DNA of 64,000 bases from Prochlorococcus sp. HOT208_60m_813O14. GTDB lineage: Bacteria; Cyanobacteriota; Cyanobacteriia; PCC-6307; Cyanobiaceae. Location: positions 1 through 64,000 of the forward strand of contig MWOO01000188.1 in assembly GCA_002025945.1 (NCBI GenBank). The letters run 5' to 3'. The notes under the pieces are model-generated. The model made no database searches, was not told the origin of the DNA, and saw only the letters and a program-made list of their open reading frames with translations. Below, piece after piece: positions 23,806 through 25,588 of the stretch (its first letter is position 1; the number at the start of each line of letters is the position of its first letter). The position numbers and the translations under genes are program-made.

Positions 23806-23946
23806 ATGGAGCCAATATATGTAGGAGATTTAATTCCTTCAATAGCTTCTTCTAAAAAGATTATTGCAAAATATGATAAAGGTATAAAAGAAGGGGAATT
23901 TTATGAAGAACCTATTGGCCAAGATTTTCATTACCCTGATTGGTAA
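23806..23946 (+). CDS. Small hypothetical protein (46 aa)
   Basis: Manual translation MEPIYVGDLIPSIASSKKIIAKYDKGIKEGEFYEEPIGQDFHYPDW*; directly followed by the next ORF. Confidence 0.4.
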   Translation: MEPIYVGDLIPSIASSKKIIAKYDKGIKEGEFYEEPIGQDFHYPDW

Positions 23947-23948
23947 AT

Positions 23949-24131
23949 ATGCTTAGTACAAAAATAACTTTTGACTTGTCAGATTGGATTAGAGAGTGGC
24001 GTAAGCAAAGGTATAAGAATCCTTCTATTGATGAGTGTGTAAAATTTGTTGAGTGGAAATTGAAAGGTTATAAACTTTCTGATAGTGATAAAAGAATAAT
24101 TGAATCTATTTTGCTTTATGAATCTGAATAA
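23949..24131 (+). CDS. Small hypothetical protein (about 60 aa)
   Basis: MLSTKITFDLSDWIREWRKQRYKNPSIDECVKFVEWKLKGYKLSDSDKRIIESILLYESE; in the track from an upstream TTG at 23940. Confidence 0.5.
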   Translation: MLSTKITFDLSDWIREWRKQRYKNPSIDECVKFVEWKLKGYKLSDSDKRIIESILLYESE

Positions 24132-24212
24132 CTAACAATTATAGACTTTAATTTTTATATTTATCTATAAAAAACAAAGGATCATTAAAATCCTCTTACA
24201 AATTACGAAAAA

Positions 24213-24567
24213 AGTAAATCAGCATATTTACGGATTTACTGAAAATATAAAAAGGAGTAATTTATAAATGTTGAGTTCGGAGGCAATCTAAATGATTGAT
24301 AGTCCGCCTGAAATTTAGCAAATTCCAAAATATAGGAAGCGTATTCCTGAGAATGGGATTATTCGAAAATTCAAGTTCAATCAATTAGTCTGATAAGACT
24401 TCGCTCTATAATTACTAGCGACAACAGGGACTGAAATTATCGAGTGTAATCCCCGAATTCACGTATTCTAGGTTTATGAGTAAATAGACTTTAAAATATG
24501 TAATTTTATATCCTGTTAGAAGGAAATCAAATATCAAAAAGGACTGTACCACCAGTCCTTTTTTTTT
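24213..24567 (+). ncRNA. Candidate structured RNA locus ending in a strong intrinsic terminator (identity unknown)
   Basis: Stem-loops AGTAAATC...GATTTACT (24213-24240), CGGA..CAATC/GATTG..TCCG (about 24278-24305), AGGAAgcgtaTTCCT (about 24334-24348), long-range GGGATTA/TAATCCC (24355-24361 / 24447-24453), TCGCT/AGCGA inside, and terminator 24541-24567; no long ORF. Confidence 0.5.
24541..24567 (+). terminator. Intrinsic terminator
   Basis: AAAAA-GGACTG-TACCAC-CAGTCC-TTTTTTTTT. Confidence 0.92.
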
Positions 24568-24637
24568 ACAAATTACTTCTAAATTAGACTTCTTTTTCGA
24601 TAATATGGATTTGTTAAGTGTTTAAAAATATTTCATA

Positions 24638-25588
24638 ATGAAAGATCAAGTTTTGTTTCCTAAAATTGAAGTTCGTGAAAAGGGTTTTTTAAAAGTAAGT
24701 GATATACATACGATTTATTGGGAAAGATCTGGTAATCCAAATGGTAAAAAAATACTAGTTATTCATGGAGGTCCAGGAGGAGGAAGTCAACCAAGATATA
24801 GAAGATACTTTGATCCAGATAAATTCGATATTATTCAATTTGACCAAAGGGGTTGCGGTTCTTCAACTCCTTTCTCAGAATTAAAAGAAAATACGACTAA
24901 TCATTTAGTTGATGATATTGAGAAATTAAGGATTCTATTAAAAATAGATAGTTGGCATTTGTTTGGCGGATCTTGGGGCTCAACACTTTCACTTATATAT
25001 GCAATAAAAAATCCCTCAAGAGTTACGAGCTTAACTTTGAGAGGAATATTTTTATGTAGAAAGTTTGAATTATTGTGGTTCTATCAATATGGTGCAAGTG
25101 AGATATTCCCTGATGAATTTGAAGAATATATTTCTGTAATACCAAAAGAAGAAAGAAATGATTTGATAAGTTCTTTTTATAAATATCTAACATCATCAGA
25201 TGCAAATCTTAGATCAAAAGCAGCAGCAGCTTGGACAAAATGGGAACTCTCAACAAGTCATTTAATAAATAAAAAATTCGATTTTGAGAAGTCCCAAGTT
25301 AATTCTTTTTCAGATGCATTTGCAAGGATCGAATGCCATTATTTTGTTAATAATATTTTCTTAGAAGATAATTTTATTTTGAAAAATATAAAAATAATAG
25401 AATCGATTCCAACAAAAATAATTCAAGGGAGGTACGACGTAGTATGTCCTGTTAGGAGTGCTTGGGATCTAAATAAGAAATTAAAGAATTCTGAATTAAT
25501 TATTGTTAATGATGCTGGTCATTCAATGAGTGAAAAAGGTATTAGTATCGAATTAATAAAAGCTGTAAAAGGAATTCAAAATCTCTAA
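24638..25588 (+). CDS. pip: Prolyl aminopeptidase (proline iminopeptidase)
   Basis: VIHGGPGGGSQPRYRRYFDPDKFDIIQFDQRGCGSSTP and GGSWGSTLSL nucleophile elbow. Confidence 0.95.
   Translation: MKDQVLFPKIEVREKGFLKVSDIHTIYWERSGNPNGKKILVIHGGPGGGSQPRYRRYFDPDKFDIIQFDQRGCGSSTPFSELKENTTNHLVDDIEKLRILLKIDSWHLFGGSWGSTLSLIYAIKNPSRVTSLTLRGIFLCRKFELLWFYQYGASEIFPDEFEEYISVIPKEERNDLISSFYKYLTSSDANLRSKAAAAWTKWELSTSHLINKKFDFEKSQVNSFSDAFARIECHYFVNNIFLEDNFILKNIKIIESIPTKIIQGRYDVVCPVRSAWDLNKKLKNSELIIVNDAGHSMSEKGISIELIKAVKGIQNL

Follow-up and report, generated by a model that had tools for sequence, protein, structure and literature searches.

The Locus Upstream of pip

The window, a stretch of 64,000 nucleotides from Prochlorococcus sp. 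HOT208_60m_813O14, carries on its plus strand the prolyl aminopeptidase gene pip (24638..25588; TIGR01249, 400.9 bits, cut-off 259.75). Upstream of this gene, a sequence-only reading had described a structured RNA locus between 24213 and 24567, which lacks a long ORF and ends in a terminator 70 nt before pip. The absence of a long ORF was borne out, and the terminator was found exactly as described. It consists of GGACTG (24541-24546), TACCAC, CAGTCC (24553-24558) and nine thymidines (24559-24567), and 70 nt separate it from the pip start codon at 24638. The locus is indeed structured, as the plus strand from 24213 to 24569 folds at -88.1 kcal/mol compared with a mean of -64.05 for shuffled sequences (z -4.22, 0 of 100 shuffles as good).

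Two elements of this description had to be amended. The stem-loops are real, but the hairpin at 24213-24240 belongs to the terminator of a second, minus-strand RNA and lies outside the plus-strand RNA, which starts at 24270. The long-range helix between GGGATTA (24355-24361) and TAATCCC (24447-24453) can pair on the plus strand, but only five of its seven pairs are invariant over 48 loci, and at 24361/24447 a standard pair is formed in just two of them. At the window locus, this helix has one or two pairs more than in most relatives.

Identification as Yfr8/Yfr9

The family RF02360 (Yfr8/9) was identified by an Rfam cmscan of the window at 24270..24495 on the minus strand, with 253.9 bits over the complete model (1-226 of 226), which is above the curated cut-off of 40 bits. 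In the genome of MED4, which was named by inference from the exact coordinates, the same model matches 339952-340177 on the minus strand. Two overlapping non-coding RNAs have been described for MED4, namely Yfr8 at 339952..340241 on the forward strand and Yfr9 at complement(339887..340176) (Steglich 2008, PMC2518516). Both were verified by Northern blot and 5′RACE, and species of 290, 220 and 180 nt were detected from each strand (PMC2518516).

Owing to the full-length match and the exact coordinate agreement with the published pair, the structured stretch upstream of pip is almost certainly the Yfr8/Yfr9 antisense pair, orthologous to the MED4 locus. On alignment, the locus and its ends agree with the mapped MED4 transcripts, and the conservation of the Yfr8 -10 element and of both terminators is consistent with this assignment. 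The pair itself is already known, so that the earlier label of unknown identity was mistaken: Northern blot and 5′RACE data on the locus were published in 2008, and the high-scoring match to a known family, an outcome named beforehand as one that would refute novelty, removes it. The suggestion of an independent, terminator-ended ncRNA was right, but only one strand had been recognized and the production of RNA from both was missed. A 6S-like RNA, also considered at that time, finds no support, since the Rfam scan of the window gave no 6S match even at E-values up to 1, and the same holds for tmRNA. The exclusion of rnpB, SRP RNA and Yfr1 was correct. Matches to RsaOG and STnc540 were far below the cut-off and were rejected.

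The window locus has the sequence, both strands, both ends, the gene neighborhood and the structure in common with Yfr8/Yfr9 of MED4, from which it differs only by small sequence changes. Transcription from both strands has been published for MED4 only (PMC2518516), and we infer expression of the pair in the strain of the window. A further published pair of overlapping ncRNAs in Prochlorococcus with one phage-induced partner is Yfr6/Yfr14, which is comparable by published description and not by sequence relatedness. It is located elsewhere, and a highly conserved 33-amino-acid frame has been published for Yfr6, whereas Yfr9 has no conserved frame.

RF02360 bears the name Yfr8, but it models the minus strand, which is that of Yfr9 in the paper, and spans the overlap only. 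Automatic annotation therefore places the RNA on the strand opposite to the published Yfr8, and where Rfam is the sole source, the Yfr8 strand and the two terminators go unannotated.

Promoters and Terminators of the Two Transcripts

The structured ncRNA Yfr8, with a length of about 290 nt, occupies 24270..24567 on the plus strand. The mapped MED4 start (339952) aligns to 24270, and the 3′-end is given by the conserved terminator. A -10 element TAATTT (24258..24263) is located at the correct distance from the mapped start, and TAATTT is present in all variants listed. The intrinsic terminator (24536..24567) shows compensatory changes in its stem; among 48 loci, for example, pair 24539/24560 is A-T in 41 and G-C in the other 7. 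It fits the mapped 3′-end in MED4, where the 3′-arm begins at 340235 and the T run extends to 340249.

The antisense ncRNA Yfr9, likewise about 290 nt long, occupies 24205..24494 on the minus strand, to which the MED4 coordinates map without any length change. Its intrinsic terminator (24205..24240, minus strand) consists of an 8-bp stem (24213-24220/24233-24240), which is invariant in all 48 loci, and a conserved T tract. The MED4 counterpart, a hairpin at 339895-339922, adjoins the mapped Yfr9 end at 339887. A candidate -10 element TAAAAT (24503..24508, minus strand) with a TTGATT -35 element was found by a promoter scan (24530-24503, minus strand) 9 nt before the mapped start, although such matches are equally frequent in shuffled sequences and carry little weight alone.

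Conservation and Distribution

From whole genomes, 49 loci were collected, and a DNA pattern scan raised the total to 167, with some genomes represented twice and 144 distinct sequences. The core (24270-24420) is about 98-99% identical across loci. All titled records with the locus come from Prochlorococcus or from uncultured Synechococcaceae single cells, and in an Rfam search of 300 genomes of the family the locus was confined to the genus of the window. No copy was detected on plasmids or viral contigs, and the phage records contained only a chance match of 25 nt. A photolyase search intended as a test of true locus absence gave no match even in MED4 and hence says nothing.

Constraint on the Two Strands

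In the overlap, the Yfr9 strand does not fold beyond chance (z -1.04), in contrast to the plus strand with its z-score of -4.22. These values agree with the published RNAz scores of -4.64 for Yfr8 and -2.54 for Yfr9 (PMC2518516). In helices common to both strands, changes of the wobble type, read on the plus strand, all yield G-U pairs and none yields A-C (five types versus none), and a second count of such helices gave two G-U versus no A-C. Compensatory pairs were observed on the Yfr8 strand, e.g., at 24370/24436, 24475/24486 and the terminator pair mentioned above. In helices exclusive to the minus strand, the variation is of the kind that this strand tolerates (41 A-C cells versus 5 G-U cells in plus-strand terms); strand-specific helices favor their own strand, as expected from prediction, since each fold is biased that way. 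Yfr9 may therefore have a structure of its own. Taken together, the comparison leans toward Yfr8 as the more constrained partner, but the evidence is thin, as most pairs show no variation. This comparison of 167 loci extends the work of 2008, which included six strains.

Probable Antisense Control of Yfr8

The transcripts, their ends and sizes, their decay times and the induction of Yfr9 are all established in MED4. Yfr8 decays with 19.7 min, nearest to the housekeeping RNAs, and Yfr9 with 6.9 min (PMC2897979). During phage infection of MED4, Yfr9 is elevated at 1-3 h while Yfr8 stays constant, according to a published array. On this basis, Yfr8 is probably a stable structured RNA under the control of its antisense RNA Yfr9. 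Yfr8, highly structured and nearly invariant, would be the effector, and the shorter-lived Yfr9 would pair with it over the 225-nt overlap of perfect complementarity. The resulting duplex would then be trimmed of two single-stranded 3′-tails of 65 nt each, and a rise of Yfr9, as early in the infection of MED4, would withdraw Yfr8. The 220-nt species found on both strands can be read as this trimmed duplex, as its size is close to that of the overlap; the 180-nt species is not accounted for. That the Yfr8 level stayed constant while Yfr9 rose speaks against a simple mass titration at this stage of the infection. The two transcripts form a phage-responsive RNA pair in a phototroph that ranks among the most abundant.

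The two RNAs could instead be independent trans-acting regulators whose overlap is of little regulatory meaning. Strand-specific helices and a conserved terminator on both strands would suit such a role, but with 225 nt of perfect complementarity and species of common sizes an interaction is hard to avoid, which leaves this alternative rather unlikely.

Linkage to pip

In addition to its conservation, the RNA is found always in front of the same gene. In all 165 assessable loci, pip follows on the same strand, 140-173 nt past the core, even though its protein diverges to about 80% amino acid identity. Six genomes of the same genus without the RNA also lack pip. Such a linkage would be expected if the 290-nt RNA were the prematurely terminated leader of pip, with readthrough giving the pip mRNA, perhaps under the control of a Pro-Pro leader peptide. 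A possible source of such a peptide is a frame of eight codons (MIDSPPEI, ATG at 24292, TAG at 24316-24318, plus strand), which is preceded by the Shine-Dalgarno-like sequence GGAGG (24279-24283; both elements 24279..24318). GGAGG and the frame are conserved upstream of this prolyl aminopeptidase gene in 165 of 165 loci, with ATG as start codon in 164 and GTG in one.

However, a candidate -10 element of pip itself (TAATAT, 24600..24605, plus strand) follows the terminator 37 nt before the pip ATG, and of the 132 distinct upstream sequences compared, 96 have a match at this same position. The pip homologues of sister genera are preceded by unrelated DNA without the RNA. No conserved antiterminator pairing was recognized; the candidate pairing 24423-24433/24553-24563 is, by inspection only, apparently not kept in MED4. 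Furthermore, the MIDSPPEI frame ends more than 200 nt before the terminator, usual attenuators have no full-length antisense RNA, and the six genomes without RNA and pip are mostly incomplete (five are 50-73% complete and one 92%). The cis-acting attenuator offered earlier as the alternative to an independent ncRNA is thus disfavored and a little less probable still than a pair of independent regulators: the candidate -10 element of pip at a constant position and the existence of pip without the RNA in related genera favor an independent RNA. A linkage of RNA and pip without attenuation is the simpler reading.

The Toxin-Antitoxin Proposal

In 2008, Yfr8/Yfr9 was proposed to be a type I toxin-antitoxin system, in which Yfr9 encodes a short toxic peptide from a possible frame of 44 amino acids and Yfr8 is the antisense antitoxin. 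In classical type I systems, the toxin mRNA is stable and the antisense antitoxin labile. Like hok/sok and tisB/istR, Yfr8/Yfr9 consists of overlapping or antisense RNAs with a possible short frame, and besides this antisense geometry the phage induction of Yfr9 speaks for the proposal. However, the pair differs from these systems in having no conserved peptide and reversed stabilities. The longest start-to-stop frame found in Yfr9 of MED4 comprises 40 amino acids, begins with TTG and is preceded by a stop codon; the exact 44-amino-acid frame of the paper was not found. The 40-amino-acid frame, which happens to be open at the window locus, is open in 51 of 165 loci and lacks an ATG. Its variable sites are distributed over codon positions 1/2/3 as 9/11/14, those of the other Yfr9 frame as 10/10/10, and neither shows a coding signal. 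No conserved short peptide frame was thus found in Yfr9, and the putative toxin RNA (6.9 min) is less stable than Yfr8 (19.7 min; PMC2897979), contrary to the classical arrangement. A toxin-antitoxin function looks unlikely, more so than attenuation of pip, and the weakening of this proposal is new, as is the constant position of the RNA in front of pip.

Short Frames on the Yfr8 Strand and Nearby

The MIDSPPEI frame could also belong to a bifunctional Yfr8, in which the translated leader with its nearly invariant Pro-Pro and sequestered GGAGG would, by stalling ribosomes at proline, couple the proline supply to the folding of Yfr8 and to pip, with Yfr9 as an antisense switch; this is highly improbable. 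Among shuffled sequences, 1.15% likewise contain a GGAGG followed by an ATG at the proper distance, and the motif was noticed post hoc. Since Shine-Dalgarno sequences are not enriched in the genes of MED4 and GGAGG is paired inside a conserved hairpin, GGAGG and MIDSPPEI may be conserved for reasons of RNA structure alone.

A second frame on the Yfr8 strand (24296-24370), 25 codons long and starting with TTG, is open in 165 of 165 loci, which may be due to chance. Its variable sites fall on codon positions 1/2/3 as 4/6/11 (11 of 21 in the third), too few to call it coding. Finally, two small conserved ORFs of 46 and 63 amino acids are located upstream of Yfr8 on the plus strand (23806-24131) and are present in most relatives; at the loci L025 and L027-L029, a match to the 63-amino-acid ORF lies about 1.4 kb away.
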